A stretch of 64,000 nucleotides of DNA from assembly GCF_002608075.1 (NCBI RefSeq), contig NZ_LAHA01000001.1:383014-447013 (forward strand), read 5' to 3'. Made by a program: the position numbers and the translations under genes. This DNA comes from Nostoc linckia z4. GTDB taxonomy: Bacteria > Cyanobacteriota > Cyanobacteriia > Cyanobacteriales > Nostocaceae. The notes under the pieces were generated by a model. That model had not been told where the DNA came from. It searched no databases and saw only the letters and a program-made list of their open reading frames with translations. Below are positions 48,852-62,888 of this stretch, piece after piece (position 1 is the first letter of the stretch; each line of letters opens with the position of its first letter).

Positions 48852-50693
48852 ATGAGCAATAAATTATATAAAGTATTTGCAGATGTAGAACAAAATGCAC
48901 AACTTCTCTCTAAATATTGGCATAATTTTTCTACAGAAATTTCAGAGCATTTACCAGATACATATCACCCAGAGCTGCAAGAACTTTCTGATAAATTAGA
49001 AATAGCTATTGATAATTTAGTAAATGAACTTCAAAATCCTACTCTTACCCTTGCGACAACAGGAACTACCAGTAGCGGTAAAAGCACTTTAGTAAATTTA
49101 TTATGTGGAGCAGAAATTGTTCCTGTTGCTGTCAGCGAAATGAGCGCCGGAGCAGTAACCATAGAATATAGCGAAAAAAAGTCTTTAATAATCCATGAAA
49201 CTCCAGGAGCATTATGGGAGTGTGGAGAATGGACAGGTATTAGTGATGAGCGAATTTATCAACGCTTATATGATGTAATGATAAGTTACATCGATAACAG
49301 AGAGAAACAACCTAATTTAGCTTGCCCCCAATCGACCATATCTTACCCCTTTAGACTCATCAAAGAATCTAAACTGGAATTACCCAGAGGTGTAAGGGTA
49401 AAAATTATGGATTTGCCTGGTTTAGCGTATGTGGGTGATGAAGGCAATGCGAATGTGATTAAACAGTGTCGTGAGGCATTGTGTTTGGTAACATATAACA
49501 GTGCAGAAACCGACAAAGAAAAAGTTAGAAGCTTGCTGCAAGAAGTGGTTGAGCAGGTAAAAGATTTAGGTGGTTCTCCTGCAAGGATGCTGTTTATTCT
49601 CAATCGTATTGACGTTTTTCGAGCAGATAGAAACTGGCCAGAAACAGAGAATCGCTTTGTTGAGAGTGCAATACGTAGTATCAAGCTTGAACTAACCGAA
49701 CATTTGAAAGAATATACAGAAGACATTGAAAATTTACAGGTTATAAAACTGAGTACATGGGCTTCTTTACTGGCACTACAGATAAAACATAATGATGAAA
49801 TATATAGTGTAGAAGCATCTAAAAAAGCACGAAACCATTTTTTGGGATTAATTGATGAAAGTATATTAGAAGACCTTTCATTTAAAGCAGAAAGATGGTC
49901 TAGACATGACCGAAATAGAGTTGCTGATGCATTATGGCAAAAGTCTTATGCAGAAGAATTTCAGCAATCCTTAAGAGAACATATTAGTCAACATTTTCCA
50001 CGCTTAGTTATTCCCCAAGCAATAGAACGTTTTAATGTTGCTGCTGGAAACGCTATTACAGAGTGGGCTTTACAGACAACAACAGCTATCCTTAACAGTT
50101 CAGAAGAACGCTATCAGCAAGAATGTGAAAAAATATCTTGGATTAGATTAAGCCTTAACACCTTCCTTGAAATTAGTGATAGCAAGTTAAGAGAACCATT
50201 TCAGACAATTAAGCTAGCTATAGCAGAAGAGTCAGGAGAAAAAGTACTGCGGGAGCTAGAAACAACACTTTCTAAACTTAATGAGGTAGAACCTTACAAG
50301 GAATTAGGAAACAAGATAATTGCGCTTCAAGACTGGGAAAGTGAATTAGGTAAAGGGATAAGTCAAGTTCTAGAAGCGGTGGCAAAGTCTTTAGAAAATG
50401 GGCGAATAATTCTAGACATTCCGAATTTAAAAAAGGTAAATATTATACATTTAAATTTGTTAGAGAACTGTTTAAAAAGACTAGTAGACTTAGGTTATAC
50501 AGCTTCAGTTGCGAAAGCTGGTAAAACAATGGAAGCGAGAACTGAAGAGGATAAAAAGAAACTTAGACGACTTAACCAAGAGTTAAACGAACTAGCAATG
50601 CATTTGAACATTGTAATGGAAGATGTCTTAAAGCGAATTTCCAGCCAACAAATAAATAGAATGTACGATGCATCTGTCGAACTTTTCAATTAA
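48852..50693 (+). CDS. Dynamin-like GTPase
   Basis: A 613-residue large GTPase. G1 is GTTSSGKSTLVN (71-82), G3 is MDLPGLAYVGD (DLPG near 187), and G4 is NRIDVF near 252. Between G1 and G3 lies a threonine-rich GAVTIEYSEKK that may hold G2. Residues 340-613 are helical stalk-like sequence, including LRRLNQELNELAMHLNIVMEDVLKRI. Bacterial dynamin-like proteins remodel membranes, and some protect against phage. There is no obvious transmembrane helix. The next gene overlaps by 26 bp, indicating a two-component unit. Confidence 0.85.
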   Translation: MSNKLYKVFADVEQNAQLLSKYWHNFSTEISEHLPDTYHPELQELSDKLEIAIDNLVNELQNPTLTLATTGTTSSGKSTLVNLLCGAEIVPVAVSEMSAGAVTIEYSEKKSLIIHETPGALWECGEWTGISDERIYQRLYDVMISYIDNREKQPNLACPQSTISYPFRLIKESKLELPRGVRVKIMDLPGLAYVGDEGNANVIKQCREALCLVTYNSAETDKEKVRSLLQEVVEQVKDLGGSPARMLFILNRIDVFRADRNWPETENRFVESAIRSIKLELTEHLKEYTEDIENLQVIKLSTWASLLALQIKHNDEIYSVEASKKARNHFLGLIDESILEDLSFKAERWSRHDRNRVADALWQKSYAEEFQQSLREHISQHFPRLVIPQAIERFNVAAGNAITEWALQTTTAILNSSEERYQQECEKISWIRLSLNTFLEISDSKLREPFQTIKLAIAEESGEKVLRELETTLSKLNEVEPYKELGNKIIALQDWESELGKGISQVLEAVAKSLENGRIILDIPNLKKVNIIHLNLLENCLKRLVDLGYTASVAKAGKTMEARTEEDKKKLRRLNQELNELAMHLNIVMEDVLKRISSQQINRMYDASVELFN

Positions 50694-51225
50694 TAGCGAT
50701 GCCCGCGATAAAATTGCTAAGAGTCTTGGAGTTGATATTGAAATAGTTGATAACTATTACACTGGAGAAGAAGCTGCTTTTAGAGTTCTCAAAAGATATG
50801 CCAAATATGGTTATAAATTACTATATCATCCTGAAACAAGGCAACAAATTTTAGGAGTCACAGGAGTTGCAGCACCGATTATTAATGTCGCCACACAAAT
50901 TGCTATAGATATTTCCAGCGAATTTCAATCTCCGCAAGATGATGTCATATTTGAAGTTGAAAATGATATCAATGCTTTTGAAGAGTACTTGCGTGCCGCA
51001 ATTTTTGAAGCAGCAGGTTTTGAATCATACTGCATTCAAGAACTAAAGGGCTTGATTGATAGTTTTAGGGAAAAGCAAGGCACATGGACGGGGATTGCCC
51101 TTAATGAATGGTTGCAAGAAAACCCACTTTTGTTGGCAGAGATACCACCACAATTACGATCGCAAGAGTCTAATTTAGAAGTTAGCGATCGCTTGCGCCA
51201 ATTATCTACTGCATTAAAGAAGTAG
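50668..51225 (+). CDS. Partner protein of the dynamin-like GTPase
   Basis: Not recognised. 185 residues, soluble-looking. There is one moderately hydrophobic stretch (ILGVTGVAAPIINVATQIAIDIS, near 68-90). The remainder is acidic helix with NDINAFEEYLRAAIFEAAGFESYCIQELKGLIDSF. The start overlaps the GTPase end by 26 bp, so expression is coupled and a physical partnership is likely. It could regulate the GTPase or anchor it at the membrane; this is inference from context only. Confidence 0.65.
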   Translation: MHLSNFSINSDARDKIAKSLGVDIEIVDNYYTGEEAAFRVLKRYAKYGYKLLYHPETRQQILGVTGVAAPIINVATQIAIDISSEFQSPQDDVIFEVENDINAFEEYLRAAIFEAAGFESYCIQELKGLIDSFREKQGTWTGIALNEWLQENPLLLAEIPPQLRSQESNLEVSDRLRQLSTALKK

Positions 51226-52430: not shown

Positions 52431-55400
52431 TTACCTACCAGAACACAAATTGCGTTCGCTTTTCATTACTTTTTGGTTAGTCTGCAAATAATCATGCAGC
52501 AAGTCGCAACCCCGTGCCAGCAATTTATTGAGTTCGATATCTGCTAAATCCTGGAAAATCACTGTACCACTGGCACTTCCCACAGCTAAAGTCCTACCAT
52601 CAGGACTGAAACTGATGCTGGTTAACTCGTCTTTATAACCTTTTAAAGCAATCAACAATGTGCCATCACGCTTCCAAATTCTCACTTTGTCATCGCTGGA
52701 AGCTGCTAAAGTCTTTCCATCTGGACTAAAGCTAACACTGATAAAACTATCACCATCCCCACTGAGATTACTTAGCAACTCACCGTCTCGATTCCAAATT
52801 TTCACTGTGCTATCAATACTAACGGAGGCGAGAATTTGGCTATCAGGTGACCAAGCTACCCCATTTACCCGGCGGCTATGGCCAGTCAATGTTTGTATTA
52901 ATTCGCCCTCTTGACTCCATAGTTTCACTGTTTTATCATCACTGGCTGAAGCTAGGAATTTACCATCGGGACTAAAACTGACCCAGTTAACTGCATCTTG
53001 ATGTCCTTGCAAGGTGTTAAGCAGTATACCGTTACGGTTCCAAAGCTTTACTGTTTTATCTTTACTCGCTGAGGCAATTACTTGACCATCAGGCGACCAA
53101 GCTACAGCCAAGACTGTATTATTATGACCTTGTAAACTATGCAGCAATTGACCGCCCCGACTCCACAACTTTACTGTTTTATCTTTACTCGCTGAGGCGA
53201 TTATTTTCCCATCAGGACTAAAACTAACGCCCCAAACTTGACTTTGATGCCCAGTGAAAGTACGGAATAATTTACCTTCTCGATTGAACAATTTTACAGT
53301 TTTGTCTCGACTGGCTGCGGCTAAAGTGCGCCCTCCAGGGCTAAAACTGATACTAGTCACCCAATCATTGTTATCAGTTTTGGGTTTTCGCACTAGCACA
53401 TCGTCCCAACGCCAGAGTTTAATGGTTTTGTCGCGACTTGCAGAAGCCAGGGTGCCACCATCTGGGCTAAAACTAACGCTATTCACCCAATTATTATGTC
53501 CCCTGAGGGTACCGAGCAATACACCTTGAGAACTCCAAAGTTTCAGGGTTTCGTCGGTACTTGCGGAAGCGATGGTGTTACCATCGGGGCTGAAACTAAC
53601 GCTGGTAACTCCTGCACTGTGTCCTGATAAAGTCCTCAGGAGTTTACCTTCTAAGTTCCATAATTTGATGGTCTGGTCTAAACTAGCGGAAGCTATTGTT
53701 TGACCATTGGGCGACCAAGCAACACTCAAGACTGCATCGTTATGACCTGGAAGGGTTTTTAGTAATTCACCGTCTCGACTCCAAAGCTTGATAGTATTGT
53801 CAGCACTCCCGGAAGCAATGGTTTGTCCATCAGGCGACCAAGCGACGCTTAAAACTGCACTGCTGTGTCCGTTTAAGGTTTTGAGAAATTTACCATCCTG
53901 AGTCCAAAGTTTTATCGTTTTGTCTGTACTGGCGGAAGCGATAAGTTGACCATCAGGACTAAAATTTACACTATTCACCACAGCTTGATGTCCCAAGAGA
54001 GTGGTTAGTAGTTTACCGTCCTGGTTCCAGAGTTTTACTGTTTTATCTTGGCTGGCGGAAGCAATAATTTGAGCGTCGGGACTGAAACTGATGCTATTGA
54101 CTACATCTTCATGTCCTGACAAAGTTTTGACCAAGCTACCATCAAGACGCCAGAGTTTAATTGTAGTGTCTGCACTGGCTGAGGCAATTAAATTCCGTTG
54201 GCGGCTAAATATAACACTATTTACCCCAGATATATGCCCGTCGAAACGATTATATTCTCTTACCCCCGAAACCGCTTGATAAAGAGCCGTTAGTACTTGC
54301 TCTCTGGTATTGGAATCTACCCAAATTGTTTGTTGTAATTTTTTCCCGGCTTTTAAAGCTTCTTTTAAAGCATCAATACCTTTTTGGGAAGCAAATAAAG
54401 CTTCGCTAGATACACTCAAAGTTTTAATTTCGCTATCTATTGCTGTAACGATAGAAACACTCAAACCAAATATCGCCAACACAGAAGCAGTCAAGGCAAT
54501 TTTCAGAGAACGATTTAATTTCGCTTCGCTGAGTCTTCGTTTTTCTTGGCTTTCTGCGAGTTTAGCGGTTAATTCTTTTTCTTTGAGTTCAGCGCGCAAT
54601 CGTTCGATTTCTAGCTGACTTAATTCTTCGCGCTTTTGTAACTCCCGCAATTCTGTTAATAAACCCAATCCCTGTTGGGGATGAGTATCTATTAATTTGG
54701 TTGGCTGTCTTTTTTGGCTCAATTCGCTTTTGAGTCGCTCAATTTCCGCTTGACTTTGTTCTACTTTTTGGCGTAGTTGGTTTAGTTGGACTTGTAAGCT
54801 TGATTCTTGTTGTTGCAAGTAGCGAATTAAATCTACTAAATAATCATGAATTAGTTGATAGCGTTCTGGTACGTCAGGAAAGAGAACCACTAAGCCAGAA
54901 CGAACTAAAATATCTAAAATTAACTCTAATTTGCTAGCATCTTCTAACTCTGTGAGTTGTGCGGCTAATTCAGCGCGAGTTTTAAAAGGTCGATTATTGC
55001 TTTCATCGGTTAATAAGTATAAAATCAATAAAGCTGCTCGTTCATTTTCCGGGCCGCAGTCTTTAATTAATTCTTTAATATATCGTTCGATTAATTTGTT
55101 TGGTCTATGAGGCTGATATTGTTCCAAGGTGGTAATTCGTTCATCTTGAATTTGCGCCCCCACGACTTGCAATTCAATGGGGCGGACTTCTCCAAATTCT
55201 GTGGATAAATCTGCAATCAGGACATCAATTAAAGCTGGCTCTAGGTTTAACTGAGAACGCTCCGTTAATTTTTGGATAATTACTTTGGCATATTCTGGGG
55301 AGAAATTATTTAACTGATAGCGGATATGTTTATCTAGAATATTGTGATTAATTGCTTCCAAAGCAGCAAGATGCTTAAAGTCTAATAAACGATGTAAATA

Positions 55401-57665
55401 ATCTTCTCTTAAAGAAAGAATCACCTTGACAAAAGGTATCTGGAGACAATCGCTAATAAATTTATCAAATGCTTGCTTTTGATGGCGATCGCTATATCCA
55501 AAGAAAAATTCTTCAAACTGGTCAAAAATTAAAACTGTGATTAAATGATTCTCGGCATTTTTTTCTAATTGTTGTAAAATATTGACGATGCTAGGCGCAA
55601 TAAATTCCGGCAAAACTTTAGGTTCAATGACCGCTTCTACTTTAATCTGAGACATAGCCTCAGTTAAAGATTTGCCTAATTCCTTAACCCAATCTGTATA
55701 AACTTGCAGCACCACAGGTACAGCAATTTGATCGCCAATAGCTCGATTTTGCAATGCTGGAACTAAACCCGCCGTGACCGTAGAACTTTTACCTACTCCG
55801 GACTGACCGTGAATTACTGTTAACTTTTGGTCAGCACGGCCAATTCTACCAATTAAATTATTAATATCTCGTTCTCGACCAGAAGCTGCAATTTCTAAAG
55901 CAACACTGCTACTCCCCGCAGGTGACATTAATGCCGGGTTTGTTGCTTGTCTTTGGGGTTGCAAACGTCCCGCACCAATAAAAGCTCGAAAACCATACTG
56001 TTGTTCCACAGAACGGCGTTTTTGACGAATATAATAAGCTTCTAGATATCGGCCTTCTGCAAAATAAAGCGATCGCAATGTCCGCAACAAGCGAATATAA
56101 CGATGGGCATCATATTGATGAGCGCTGTATTCTAACGCTTCTGGTAGTTCTTTTGTAGCTTTTTCTAAATATGCACGGGCGACTTCTTCCTCGCCTAAAT
56201 TGCGCTGGGCTTTAGCCAATATTAAATAATAAATTTGCGCCAATAGTAAAGGAAATAAACAGTCATAAGGGTCATTTTGTTTTTGCGCCTCAGCTAATTT
56301 TAGCAGCGATACATGCGCTAAAATACTCGCCTGTACCCAACGTGATTGCTGTACAGCCACTTGTGCCAGAAAGCCATAATCACAAGCAAGTTGAATTTGA
56401 TTGCCATAAATTTGATGCAACTCCAAAGACCTTTGAGCCACAATTTGTAATTGTTCCCAGTCTTGGAGATTTTGCAAAACTTCAGCCAGTTGACCAATAA
56501 ATTCAGCAACTATATTTAGACACCCAACTATTTCTAAAATATTCAAACATTGCTGAAAATAAGATTTTGCCGCTAACCAATGACGGCGGCTTTCCACTTG
56601 ATTTTGCTCAGCTAAACGACAACTACATAACCCCAGATAAAACAGCAAAACTCCCTGTCTGATAACTAGGGGAGAGGGGGGAGATGGGGGGGATGGGGAA
56701 GAAAATACTCTTTCTTCTCGTGAAGAAAACACAGGGGAAGAGGACACGGGGACACGGGGACGCGGGGACACGGGGACATTCTCATTCACCGCGTCCCCGC
56801 GTCTTTCCGTCACCGCGTCCTCTTCATCTCCTCTCACCGCGTCCCCGCGTCTTTCCGTCACCGCGTCCTCTTCATCCCTCCTCTCTCCCAATCTTTGCCA
56901 AATTTGTAAACTTTTCTGAAAATGATTTAACGCCGGATTGATGCGATCGCTAACATAATTATCTAAGCCAAAAACAAATTCTAAACTGGCGTACAATTCC
57001 GATTCTAAGGTGACGCCACGATTTTGTAATTCTTGGATGGCAAAATGTAATTCATAATTATGTTTCCAAATTTGCCCCAGAGTAGAATAATTTTCTGCAA
57101 ATTTAGATGTTTGCAGTTGTACGCTATTCTTCGGTAAAACTCTGGCAAATAAAGAATCAGTTTCTTGTTGCAGAAATTCCCGCAACGAATTAGTTGTCAT
57201 TTCAAATCTAATCGGTGTCGCCGCCCAACTGGCAAAATCTGGCGCTAAACGTACTACTTTTTGTAAAACTTCATCATTCATCCAAACAATTATCGGAAAT
57301 GGATGACGCTTGCGAAATTCATCACGAATATGATTAATAGACCTTAAGAAATCATCCAATCCCTCTATTAACTCTAAACCCAAAATCATCAAGGCTGAGG
57401 GCGGTTGCTTGTCGGTAACTAATTGTAAATGAATAGTTGTGTAAAGACTTCTGGCGTTGTGTGGTAAAACTACTTTTTGAATGTGGTATAATCCTGAAGA
57501 TAATTCTTCGAGTCGTTGCAACATCTCTTCTTGCAAAACCCGATAATTGCAGCATACTAAAACTAGGGAAAATTGACCGTGAGAAAGTGCGATCGCTCTC
57601 CCTAAACTCCTCAATGCCCGCTCGTTATTTGCTCTGATATCTACTTGTGGGTGTCGTTCAACCAT
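52431..57665 (-). CDS. STAND NTPase with TPR-like region, TM helix and 14 WD40 repeats
   Basis: 1744 residues. N-terminal domain (1-200) starts MVERHPQVDIRANNERALRSLG. Residues 200-580 are TPR-like helices interrupted by a repeat-derived insert (about 262-340). A STAND NTPase follows: Walker A GQSGVGKSS near 618, Walker B VLIFDQFEEFF near 711, then a helical/winged region to 950. After a coiled coil (QLRQKVEQSQAEIERLKSEL) comes one transmembrane helix (near 1058-1078). Fourteen WD40 repeats (about 1130-1710) could form two seven-blade propellers; repeats 7-8 are degenerate, marking the join. The architecture fits signal-sensing STAND proteins that oligomerise on ligand binding. No effector domain was recognised. 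The start overlaps the end of the upstream ATPase gene by 25 bp. Confidence 0.9.
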   Translation of the reverse strand: MVERHPQVDIRANNERALRSLGRAIALSHGQFSLVLVCCNYRVLQEEMLQRLEELSSGLYHIQKVVLPHNARSLYTTIHLQLVTDKQPPSALMILGLELIEGLDDFLRSINHIRDEFRKRHPFPIIVWMNDEVLQKVVRLAPDFASWAATPIRFEMTTNSLREFLQQETDSLFARVLPKNSVQLQTSKFAENYSTLGQIWKHNYELHFAIQELQNRGVTLESELYASLEFVFGLDNYVSDRINPALNHFQKSLQIWQRLGERRDEEDAVTERRGDAVRGDEEDAVTERRGDAVNENVPVSPRPRVPVSSSPVFSSREERVFSSPSPPSPPSPLVIRQGVLLFYLGLCSCRLAEQNQVESRRHWLAAKSYFQQCLNILEIVGCLNIVAEFIGQLAEVLQNLQDWEQLQIVAQRSLELHQIYGNQIQLACDYGFLAQVAVQQSRWVQASILAHVSLLKLAEAQKQNDPYDCLFPLLLAQIYYLILAKAQRNLGEEEVARAYLEKATKELPEALEYSAHQYDAHRYIRLLRTLRSLYFAEGRYLEAYYIRQKRRSVEQQYGFRAFIGAGRLQPQRQATNPALMSPAGSSSVALEIAASGRERDINNLIGRIGRADQKLTVIHGQSGVGKSSTVTAGLVPALQNRAIGDQIAVPVVLQVYTDWVKELGKSLTEAMSQIKVEAVIEPKVLPEFIAPSIVNILQQLEKNAENHLITVLIFDQFEEFFFGYSDRHQKQAFDKFISDCLQIPFVKVILSLREDYLHRLLDFKHLAALEAINHNILDKHIRYQLNNFSPEYAKVIIQKLTERSQLNLEPALIDVLIADLSTEFGEVRPIELQVVGAQIQDERITTLEQYQPHRPNKLIERYIKELIKDCGPENERAALLILYLLTDESNNRPFKTRAELAAQLTELEDASKLELILDILVRSGLVVLFPDVPERYQLIHDYLVDLIRYLQQQESSLQVQLNQLRQKVEQSQAEIERLKSELSQKRQPTKLIDTHPQQGLGLLTELRELQKREELSQLEIERLRAELKEKELTAKLAESQEKRRLSEAKLNRSLKIALTASVLAIFGLSVSIVTAIDSEIKTLSVSSEALFASQKGIDALKEALKAGKKLQQTIWVDSNTREQVLTALYQAVSGVREYNRFDGHISGVNSVIFSRQRNLIASASADTTIKLWRLDGSLVKTLSGHEDVVNSISFSPDAQIIASASQDKTVKLWNQDGKLLTTLLGHQAVVNSVNFSPDGQLIASASTDKTIKLWTQDGKFLKTLNGHSSAVLSVAWSPDGQTIASGSADNTIKLWSRDGELLKTLPGHNDAVLSVAWSPNGQTIASASLDQTIKLWNLEGKLLRTLSGHSAGVTSVSFSPDGNTIASASTDETLKLWSSQGVLLGTLRGHNNWVNSVSFSPDGGTLASASRDKTIKLWRWDDVLVRKPKTDNNDWVTSISFSPGGRTLAAASRDKTVKLFNREGKLFRTFTGHQSQVWGVSFSPDGKIIASASKDKTVKLWSRGGQLLHSLQGHNNTVLAVAWSPDGQVIASASKDKTVKLWNRNGILLNTLQGHQDAVNWVSFSPDGKFLASASDDKTVKLWSQEGELIQTLTGHSRRVNGVAWSPDSQILASVSIDSTVKIWNRDGELLSNLSGDGDSFISVSFSPDGKTLAASSDDKVRIWKRDGTLLIALKGYKDELTSISFSPDGRTLAVGSASGTVIFQDLADIELNKLLARGCDLLHDYLQTNQKVMKSERNLCSGR
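56660..56885. repeat. Repeat-derived low-complexity insert inside the STAND gene
   Basis: GGGGACACGGGGACGCGGGG units (about 56745-56775) are followed by an exact 48-bp tandem duplication (copies begin at 56787 and 56835) built from CACCGCGTCCCCGCGTCTTT and related bits. Because 48 is divisible by three, the protein gains a 16-residue repeat (DEEDAVTERRGDAV twice) without frame loss. Confidence 0.9.
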
Positions 57666-58972
57666 GATTTAAATTTTTGCGTTTCTGCTAAAACCGGGTT
57701 GACTGCAAACCAAGCCCCTTCGCGATCGCGGTATTCAAATACAAATAAACTCCGCAATAAAGTGTGATATTCAATATCGCCTCTAACCCTCTGTTGTTGC
57801 ACCACCTGAAAGATGAGTTCCCATTCATGGGGGTCAATGGCATTGGCTCGGTAATCTCGCTGTCTTTGAATTACCAATTCGACACATTCTTGCTCGAATG
57901 GTGGATCTTGTTCCCGCAAACAATCAAACAACAACCCCAACAAGTCGCGTACATGACCGCCACTAATCAAACACAACCGATCTAAGGTTTCTAAATTATC
58001 AAACACTTCTGTAATTAAGCCTAACCGATCGCTGGGTAAAATGTCTGGGAAAGCCCTTGCTAGCACCATTTGTCGCATCAATGCTAGTCCTTGGGGAAAA
58101 ATTTCTCCAGAGCGCAAACGCACAGGTATCATCGGTAAAACTTTTGGCGCGACTCCTCCGCCTAAACGATGTTGAAGTTCGGCGCTATCGTTGGAGAAAG
58201 TCAAAGCTAGGGGAATAGTATAGACTACATGACAATTTAGTTTGCGTAACTGTTCGCCCCGTTGAATAAACAAGTATTCTGGTAGCGATCGCCCCGATGG
58301 TAAAGGTCGAATTGCTACTCTATCCAAATTATCAACAATTACTACTAGTCCTCTTTTACCCTGAGTTTTAAGTTCTTTATTGGCACGTTCTAATAGTTCT
58401 TGATTAATTGACTGTAAAATATTAGCCGTTCGCGGTTCCAAATAATCCCTTAACCGCCGCCGCAATTGCGGACTTTCTTTGGTTTTAGCAGTAATTTTGC
58501 CAATCCCCACAGATAACTCGGCTTCAACTCCCAGTTCAATTGGTGTTTGCAAAAAATCGACAATTTCGCCAAACAATTTGCTAAAGTATCTAGGCTTGAG
58601 TTTAATTTTCATCGCCTCCAGACTTTCACTCACCTGACCGGCGATGGCCAATAAAACATCAGTCACATCCACATCCGCCATTTCTAAGACGTGGGTAGAC
58701 TCAAAATAAACCACATGAAACTGCTGTACTTCTAACTCGGCTTTTAGGCGCAACAATTCCGTTGATTTTCCACAGCCGAGATGTCCCGTAAATAGCTGAC
58801 AAGTTGGTGAATCTGGGGATATGCGAGTGATGGTACGCTGCAAAGCTTCAATGATTTTGCCACCCCGCACTGCTGCAAAATCGATATAATATCGGCGATC
58901 GCTTGCATCTCCTATCATTAGAGGTCTACTTGGATTGCAAGCCTGATAAAATCTTTCTAAATCTAGGAGCAT
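57641..58972 (-). CDS. P-loop ATPase, partner of the STAND protein
   Basis: A 443-residue AAA-type ATPase. Walker A is GHLGCGKST (63-71) and Walker B is LVVIVDNLDR near 210. VAPKVLPMIPVRLRSGEIFPQGLALMRQMV and LISGGHVRDLLGLLFDCLRE resemble the sensor/lid region of Orc/Cdc6- or KAP-like ATPases. It has no membrane segment. The C-terminal SLFVFEYRDREGAWFAVNPVL ends the fold. It is the first gene of a pair with the STAND gene, overlapping by 25 bp, so the two proteins are made together. The function is unknown; a conflict or signalling role is inferred. Confidence 0.82.
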   Translation of the reverse strand: MLLDLERFYQACNPSRPLMIGDASDRRYYIDFAAVRGGKIIEALQRTITRISPDSPTCQLFTGHLGCGKSTELLRLKAELEVQQFHVVYFESTHVLEMADVDVTDVLLAIAGQVSESLEAMKIKLKPRYFSKLFGEIVDFLQTPIELGVEAELSVGIGKITAKTKESPQLRRRLRDYLEPRTANILQSINQELLERANKELKTQGKRGLVVIVDNLDRVAIRPLPSGRSLPEYLFIQRGEQLRKLNCHVVYTIPLALTFSNDSAELQHRLGGGVAPKVLPMIPVRLRSGEIFPQGLALMRQMVLARAFPDILPSDRLGLITEVFDNLETLDRLCLISGGHVRDLLGLLFDCLREQDPPFEQECVELVIQRQRDYRANAIDPHEWELIFQVVQQQRVRGDIEYHTLLRSLFVFEYRDREGAWFAVNPVLAETQKFKSWLNDTHK

Positions 58973-59435: not shown

Positions 59436-59741
59436 ATGCTTGAAGAAGTAAATGGCTTTGATTGGGATGAAGGGAACTCTGCCAAATGCTGGAATCGTGT
59501 TTCTAAAGAAGAAATTGAGTATCTGTTTCAACAGCCGGATATTCTCATTGCTCCAGATATACAACACTCTGAAAATGAGGACAGATATCTTGCTATAGGG
59601 ATTTCAAGCCGAGAAAAGTATATTTTTGTAGCTTTTACATTCCGCAATAAACAAGATCAAATACTCATTAGACCAATCAGTGCCAGATATATGCGAGATA
59701 AAGAGGTACAGAGATATGGACAAAGATTTCCCAAGACTTAA
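59436..59741 (+). CDS. BrnT-family toxin
   Basis: A 101-residue RelE-like ribonuclease toxin family member. FDWDEGNSAKCWNRVSKEEIEYLFQQPDIL is the BrnT signature start, followed by EDRYLAIGISSREKYIFVAFTFRN and ILIRPISARYMRDKEVQRYGQ, with the conserved Arg/Lys residues of the active surface. It is the first gene of the pair, as typical for brnTA. No strong Shine-Dalgarno was seen. Confidence 0.88.
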   Translation: MLEEVNGFDWDEGNSAKCWNRVSKEEIEYLFQQPDILIAPDIQHSENEDRYLAIGISSREKYIFVAFTFRNKQDQILIRPISARYMRDKEVQRYGQRFPKT

Positions 59742-59970
59742 AACTGATGAAGAGATAGAGTTTCTATTAGAAGAAGATTTGTCAGATTATCTTCATCCTG
59801 AAAATTTTAAGCCAGTAACCTTTGAATTCAAGCCTAAAGATAAATCTGTCAATGTAAGAATGTCTGAGCAAATGTTAGAGGCAGTAAAAACTGTTTCCAA
59901 GAAAGAAGGGATACCTTATCAACGTTACATTAGACGAGCAATAGAACGGTCTTTAGGTGCTGAATACTAG
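59716..59970 (+). CDS. BrnA/CopG-like antitoxin
   Basis: 84 residues from ATG 59716 (MDKDFPRLKTDEEIEFLLEE); the longer reading to 59680 starts inside brnT and is less likely. The acidic N-terminus is the toxin-binding part. FKPKDKSVNVRMSEQMLEAVKTVSKKEGIPYQRYIRRAIERSL is a ribbon-helix-helix DNA-binding domain. It overlaps brnT by 26 bp. Confidence 0.87.
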   Translation: MDKDFPRLKTDEEIEFLLEEDLSDYLHPENFKPVTFEFKPKDKSVNVRMSEQMLEAVKTVSKKEGIPYQRYIRRAIERSLGAEY

Positions 59971-62093: not shown

Positions 62094-62888
62094 ATGACGC
62101 CCTCACAAGACGTAGATACTGTAACCGCTACTGATATCAACTCAGAAACAGATGGCAACTCCCAAACAGATCCTTTAGATGAGTTGCCGGGTGAAGTCGA
62201 AATGTCACTTTTCGACCACCTAGAAGAGTTGCGACAGCGAATTTTTTATTCGTTAATTGCTGTAGCTATAGCAATTGTCGGTTGTTTCTTTGCTGTTAAG
62301 CCCATTGTCCAACTACTTGAAGTTCCAGCACAAGGAGTCAAATTTCTGCAACTTGCACCTGGAGAATATTTCTTTGTCTCCCTGAAAGTCGCAGCTTACA
62401 CTGGCTTGGTGCTTTCTAGTCCTTTCATTCTTTACCAAATTATCCAGTTTGTGCTTCCGGGACTGACTCGCCGGGAACGCCGCTTATTGGGGCCTGTGGT
62501 TTTAGGGTCGAGTGTTTTATTTGCAGCAGGTTTAGTATTTGCTTATTTACTTTTAATTCCCGCAGCTTTGAAATTTTTCATCAGCTACGGGGCAGATGTC
62601 GTTGAACAACTTTGGTCTATTGACAAATATTTTGAATTTGTGCTGCTACTTTTATTCAGCACTGGTTTAGCTTTTCAGATTCCCATCATTCAACTATTAC
62701 TCGGTAACTTGAATATTGTCTCGTCTCAAAAGATGGTTTCTGGTTGGCGTTACGTGATTATGGGAGCAGTGGTTTTAGGAGCAGTTCTCACACCTTCCAC
62801 CGACCCCCTCACCCAAAGTCTTTTAGCTGGTGCAGTTCTGGGACTTTATTTTGGTGGTATTGGCTTAGTGAAGCTCACAGGAAAATAG
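62094..62888 (+). CDS. tatC: Sec-independent translocase subunit TatC
   Basis: TatC binds twin-arginine signal peptides and starts folded-protein export across plasma and thylakoid membranes. The 264-residue protein has a polar N-terminal 35 residues, the conserved [15 protein letters not shown] before TM1, and six hydrophobic helices. [28 protein letters not shown] holds the first periplasmic loop and TM2. It lies near petC, whose Rieske product depends on Tat. Confidence 0.96.

Follow-up and report, generated by a model that had tools for sequence, protein, structure and literature searches.

A stretch of 64,000 nucleotides from Nostoc linckia z4 (assembly GCF_002608075.1, contig NZ_LAHA01000001.1, positions 383,014 to 447,013; hereafter the window) carries two overlapping genes that encode a small P-loop ATPase and a giant protein with a STAND-type NTPase and WD40 repeats (Table 1). 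We tentatively read the pair as a two-protein, membrane-anchored STAND receptor, composed of an active ATPase and a giant sensor fronted by a dead AAA+ domain, with a likely role, chiefly among filamentous cyanobacteria, in signalling of conflict, cell death or stress. Since the two genes are found together as a unit in many cyanobacteria and some of their relatives carry cell-suicide domains, the pair may be a danger-signalling machine, of unusual construction. An earlier note, made from the sequence of the window alone, had drawn attention to the two genes. A check of the open reading frames (ORFs) reproduced their positions, lengths and overlap, Pfam and hydropathy reproduced the layout proposed for the giant protein (an N-terminal domain, a TPR-like region, a STAND domain, one transmembrane (TM) helix and 14 WD40 repeats), and the window's two proteins were indeed found to contain no known effector domain.

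A scan of named genomes returned at least 550 relatives, from which 80 loci were kept, all from records named as cyanobacteria; three are cut by a contig end, which left 77 assessable for pairing. The partner gene was found no more than 2 kb downstream on the same strand in 74 of these and was absent in three (L077, L079 and L083), so that homologues do not mostly occur apart. When 292 genomes drawn from the phylum were searched, the ATPase was present in 65, the N-terminal domain of the giant protein in 64 and both in 61. Tree distances of the ATPase and the N-terminal domain were correlated across 109 pairs (r 0.88, against at most 0.22 in 999 permutations), a value to which shared species history contributes, and the nearest-paralogue class agreed in 95 of these pairs and disagreed in 14. 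On these comparisons the two genes form a unit and are inherited together. Their reading frames, taken from the first start codon of each ORF, overlap in 54/54 orthologous pairs and in 59 of the 74 pairs overall; because overlap is missing in the remaining 15, it does not fix the stoichiometry for the family, contrary to what the earlier note had supposed.

In the 9.0-Mb genome of the strain itself there are four more relatives of the ATPase, and behind each of them lies a gene whose product begins with this N-terminal domain; by alignment three of these partners are long STAND-type proteins, and one (C35) has just the N-terminal domain and a TPR-like part. The ATPase was detected in 31 of the 32 genomes of its own family (f1) that were searched, Nostoc and Anabaena species included, and in 165 of 192 genomes at E≤1e-80 in the family search. 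Carriers are mainly filamentous cyanobacteria, as read from genus names, and ATPase relatives also lie on plasmids of Acaryochloris, which is unicellular. Outside the Cyanobacteria, a distant pair on the Acidisarcina plasmid pACPOL1 (L175) combines an ATPase-like gene with a TPR gene whose start is weakly similar to the partner domain (E 0.0036); a gene annotated CHAT lies upstream of them.

Alignments and a structure model place the small protein among the AAA+ ATPases of the ORC/TnsC/CED-4 class, with its ATP-binding motifs intact. Walker A was present in 31/31 ATPase rows of the alignment, and the fold matches of the model were to AAA+ proteins of the ORC/TnsC/STAND class; the same matches point to a putative C-terminal lid and winged-helix part. 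In Pfam the window ATPase gave two weak matches, KAP_NTPase (PF07693; E 3.4e-7) and ATPase_2 (E 5.3e-6), the former at 30.3 bits against a curated cut-off of 20; a TIR-fused relative in L151 scored 19.9 bits with PF07693, just under that cut-off. Many KAP proteins have TM segments inserted in the P-loop domain. No inserted segments of this kind were seen in the window ATPase (maximum 19-residue hydropathy 1.19) or in four paralogues (0.87-1.68). Elsewhere among the relatives, the ATPase is fused to an N-terminal AAA domain in L083 (with TPR) and, by sequence, in L233, and in L232 it has a long C-terminal extension and lies beside a gene named by eye as Hsp70-like.

The giant protein starts with what is, by alignment and model, an AAA+ core that has lost Walker A and is still recognisable in its fold. 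The N-terminal domain of the earlier note was therefore present, with the correction that it is an AAA+ fold devoid of Walker A. The motif was found in 0/34 N-terminal domains, Pfam returned zero matches to residues 1-190 at E≤10, and sequence searches with the ATPase profile or the dead-domain profile found no significant match among solved structures. What follows the dead domain varies. It stands alone downstream of the ATPase, with no giant gene behind, in L144 and L160 (158-160 residues); it is joined to TPR in L126, L128 and L149, and to TPR and nSTAND1 with no WD40 match at E≤0.01 in L142, L148, L154 and L156 (TPR unmatched in L156); full-length partners with WD40 repeats were also found downstream of the ATPase. 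By these architectures, the dead domain is the constant partner of the ATPase. Among the ORFs scanned, two tandem ATPase genes were accompanied by two dead domains in 4/4 loci, within one protein (L151, L172) or in two ORFs (L088, L230). A strict 1:1 ratio of ATPase to dead domain was nevertheless rejected, since it fails in L228 and L229 (1:2). Stand-alone copies of the dead domain were also observed, one with an in-frame TAG in the strain's own genome (L013, C72:6766-7227) and open ones in relatives, of which L161 and L162 had no ATPase in the stretch fetched.

Behind the dead domain, nSTAND1 (PF20703) was matched at 109.5 bits (E 3.9e-31) against a curated cut-off of 27.1. Basic residues are commoner on the N-terminal side of the TM segment in 64 of 69 proteins and equal on both sides in three, and because of this charge pattern the C-terminus, with the WD40 repeats, is predicted to lie outside, perhaps beyond the cytoplasm, in an N-in/C-out topology. 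Among 66 long proteins, the window's included, 61 have 14 WD40 repeats and five have 13. The WD40 region is nearly free of cysteine, and a terminal Cys pair is present in 66 of 69 proteins. This pattern was dropped as an argument for an outside WD40 domain, as 4/6 other WD40 ORFs were also Cys-free, or 2/4, one an NB-ARC protein, once two pieces of broken family members were removed; with so small and mixed a control, the topology is drawn from the TM segment and its charges only. The low-complexity insert in the linker/TPR region is gapped in the alignment in paralogues C1b, C121 and C35 and part filled in C57, and C121 has another, long low-complexity insert within its STAND domain. When the possibility that the linker insert derives from a repeat dispersed in the genome was examined, with a query pattern that only approximates the window repeat and hence makes a poor test, one imperfect match was obtained.

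Links to conflict systems came through relatives of the ATPase. A TIR domain is fused to the second ATPase of L151, L172 and L230 (E 1.2e-31, 1.5e-33 and 1.3e-30), and the listed matches to an ATPase-TIR query included hits via its TIR part in 3/192 genomes, of which one was identical to the query and perhaps from the same organism. In two genomes (G167 and G427) an ATPase preceded by an extension of 243-244 residues closes a gene run that also contains iSTAND (E 1.4e-20 and 5e-36), a VWA_CoxE gene and an AAA_5-type gene that we call MoxR-like from its context, along with a CHAT gene in G427; AAA and VWA_CoxE neighbours were found only for the paralogues in L165/L176 and L231. Paralogues of the window ATPase thus occupy the apparent effector position of two ternary operons (cf. 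PMC7159879). The 244-residue extension of the last gene in the iSTAND-AAA-vWA operons of L176/L231 was met in 91/192 family genomes, in open frames whose lengths differ widely, as would be expected of the variable vWA-L effector carrier of Kaur et al. 2021 (PMC8195603), with which it is identified from context and not by profile. These frames form a possible catalogue of exchangeable effectors. Relatives were also found on eight plasmid records: on a conjugative plasmid of Acaryochloris two recombinase genes flank the pair, with HicAB and NACHT genes nearby, and on another plasmid the pair adjoins a CHAT-TIR gene and genes annotated NB-ARC. The phage records searched gave no match to the ATPase. 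The TIR fusions fit the earlier note's suggestion of the small ATPase as a possible output, and together with the ternary operons and plasmid contexts they support, via relatives, a link of the ATPase to conflict.

In the mechanism that we propose, the WD40 repeats would bind a ligand, perhaps outside the cytoplasm, and the nSTAND1 domain would switch and oligomerise. The dead AAA+ domain may be the docking site of the small ATPase, and clustered dead domains would nucleate or activate its assembly. The ATPase would provide the output, via its own C-terminus or, in some paralogues, via the fused TIR.

Table 1. Features of the gene pair and its surroundings (window positions)
Feature	Position	Strand	Description
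ATPase gene	57641..58972	(-)	443 aa; small AAA+/STAND-class; Walker A and Walker B motifs
Walker A motif of ATPase	58760..58786	(-)	residues 63-71; conserved alignment columns
Overlap of ATPase gene and giant gene	57641..57665	(-)	25 bp
Giant gene	52431..57665	(-)	1744 aa; dead AAA+ domain, TPR, nSTAND1, coil, TM, 14 WD40 repeats
Dead AAA+ domain	57126..57665	(-)	residues 1-180; no Walker A
TPR-like helical region	55986..57068	(-)	about residues 200-560; TPR_12 and TPR_8, under curated cut-offs
Low-complexity insert	56661..56882	(-)	residues 262-335; in-frame, linker/TPR region; 24/48-nt tandem repeat
nSTAND1 NTPase domain	54756..55880	(-)	residues 596-970; Walker A intact
Coiled-coil-like linker	54510..54755	(-)	residues 971-1052; judged by eye
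Single hydrophobic (TM) segment	54426..54509	(-)	residues 1053-1080; N side positive
WD40 repeats	52521..54290	(-)	14 repeats; enough for two seven-bladed propellers
tatC	62094..62888	(+)	frequent chromosomal neighbour of the orthologous pair

The pair in the window is surrounded by DUF4351, dynamin-like, BrnT/antitoxin, SDR and TatC genes. The toxin-antitoxin, Rpn and dynamin genes among which the earlier note had placed it are thus in the window ("Rpn" being the DUF4351 gene), but they are not conserved, as BrnT, the antitoxin, DUF4351 and the dynamin-like gene with its follower each occur in 0-2 of the 80 related loci, not all of which extend as far. Flank clusters among 55 orthologous loci (≥79% identity; one member of each cluster checked in Pfam) comprised tatC in 30, PetC in 21 and cytochrome f in 20; tatC was found in 29/46 orthologous loci having 4.5 kb upstream, and in the other 17 either tatC has been lost or the pair occupies a different place. 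The window copy looks like core genome, and the earlier note's argument from a defence island was rejected for this copy because the neighbours are strain-specific and the flanks core, with many orthologues in the tatC/petC/petA region. Ratios of nonsynonymous to synonymous substitution (dN/dS) against nine chosen orthologues, by the simple NG86 method, were lowest in the ATPase (0.037-0.058), followed by STAND (0.063-0.095), WD40 (0.091-0.124) and the dead domain (0.114-0.235), and are rough since many dS values lie near or above 1. With the repeat number, they speak for a ligand that is conserved and not for a rapid arms race. As to the neighbours themselves, the BrnT toxin and a CopG/BrnA-type antitoxin (59436-59970, overlapping frames) recur in 1/80 related loci (L017) and are therefore probably a recent insertion. 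At 48852-51225 the dynamin-like gene, whose protein has weak PADLOC similarity to LeoBC/LeoA, is overlapped by a 185-residue ORF that has no Pfam match and a relative in one related locus only (L022).

Several observations weigh against a signalling receptor of the kind proposed. The core locus, the dN/dS values of 0.04-0.24 and the near-constant number of WD40 repeats are all unlike fast-evolving immune sensors, and the window's own proteins lack an effector. No sequence similarity was detected between dead domain and ATPase by hhalign, or between either of them and iSTAND by profile comparison (two iSTAND proteins for the dead domain), the alignments being shallow in both cases. One ATPase accompanies two partner domains in the distant-clade loci L228 and L229, and no partner domain was detected beside the ATPase in the two ternary loci. 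The structure model of the ATPase is moderate (predicted local distance difference test 74.1, predicted template modelling score 0.63), the TM segment is just mildly hydrophobic in some paralogues (minimum 1.33), and the PADLOC matches of the ATPase are weak, while the strong one of the giant protein (HEAT-ARM_XIII, E 1.4e-43) stems from its WD40 repeats. A rival reading is a constitutive, non-immune signalling or assembly module of filamentous cyanobacteria for envelope, thylakoid or cell-differentiation homeostasis, of which the ATPase and dead AAA+ domain would be a general part borrowed by conflict systems. We regard such a role as possible, if rather doubtful: the near-universal ATPase, the several paralogues per genome, strong purifying selection, the nearly fixed number of repeats, strain-specific defence neighbours and the loci beside tatC, petC and cytochrome f, like that of paralogue C57 beside psbO-type and FtsQ-type genes, speak for it, whereas in the examples seen the pair is encoded on the other strand from tatC, petC and cytochrome f, and so shares no operon with them, paralogues occur in TIR fusions, ternary operons and on plasmids, and multi-copy STAND-WD40 receptors resemble alarm systems.

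A purely auxiliary function of the small ATPase, as a chaperone or assembly factor that folds or remodels the giant protein and takes no part in signalling, appears improbable. Gene adjacency and overlap would be accounted for, and AAA+ proteins often remodel their partners, but the ATPase also accompanies the stand-alone partner domain of L144 and L160, and its relatives carry TIR domains and end ternary operons. Avs and other antiphage STAND proteins have an N-terminal effector domain (nuclease, protease or TIR). Although a STAND-type NTPase, a repeat sensor and toxin-antitoxin neighbours could suggest a defence-island antiphage gene of the canonical Avs/NLR type, no N-terminal effector domain was found for the window pair, its PADLOC matches at E≤0.01 include no Avs model, its neighbours are not conserved, its locus is core and the ATPase had no match in the phage records searched; we thus disfavour this explanation as very improbable.

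Apaf-1/CED-4 and the NLR resistosomes contain a STAND-class ATPase that assembles, in Apaf-1 with a WD40 sensor. The window pair shares the STAND-class ATPase (by fold matches) and, with Apaf-1, the WD40 sensor; in contrast to Apaf-1/CED-4, its ATPase and sensor are separate, presumably joined via the dead AAA+ domain, and the sensor has a second NTPase. Of bacterial systems, the nSTAND2 conflict operons also consist of two genes, for an intact STAND-class NTPase and an eroded one fused to variable modules (Kaur et al. 2021, PMC8195603). Nucleotide-binding motifs are likewise eroded in one partner of the window pair (Walker A in 0/34 against 31/31, in an AAA+ fold), and its dead domain is likewise fused, to TPR-nSTAND1-WD40 where those operons have GT4 or HEPN (PMC8195603). 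nSTAND2 (PF20702) itself gave no match in the ATPase at E≤0.01 or in residues 1-190 at E≤10. The pair is thus similar to STAND conflict systems already published, and has in common with the nSTAND2 operons the combination of an active and an eroded NTPase, but it lacks a match to their defining domain. The MoxR-vWA ternary systems with iSTAND (2020, PMC7159879) similarly combine a dead STAND-type component with an active AAA+ protein; no MoxR or vWA gene lies beside the window pair, and iSTAND (PF19995) had no match in residues 1-190 at E≤10. Receptors with a central nSTAND1 NTPase and a C-terminal sensor (PMC8195603, PMC10907252) are also alike, and forms with EAD or with sensors diversified by diversity-generating retroelements are reported to be enriched in multicellular bacteria; their N-terminus is an EAD or an enzyme, whereas the window pair has a dead AAA+ N-terminus with a separate ATPase, and a WD40 sensor behind a TM segment. 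No description of the window pair was found in the open-access literature searched, subscription papers being outside its scope; Kaur et al. (PMC8195603) name an 'Npun2340/2341 family' of STAND proteins, which might correspond to the window pair.

We consider it unlikely, though worth stating, that the pair represents a so far undescribed receptor class, in which a TM STAND-WD40 sensor with its propellers outside the cytoplasm carries no effector of its own and recruits a separate AAA+ ATPase via a catalytically dead AAA+ adaptor. The ATPase would then serve as an interchangeable carrier of effectors, whether bare, TIR-fused or in ternary systems, and several receptors acting in parallel in each cell would make up a core network for alarm or altruistic death in multicellular cyanobacteria. 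If the two-protein receptor is correct, it would represent a new wiring plan for STAND receptors, with switch protein and output ATPase separate and meeting via a dead AAA+ adaptor, and with a sensor that may face outwards. As the pair is present in nearly every family genome searched, species of Nostoc and Anabaena among them, two genera that include laboratory strains, a role of core STAND receptors in the control of immunity or cell death of multicellular cyanobacteria would become directly testable.
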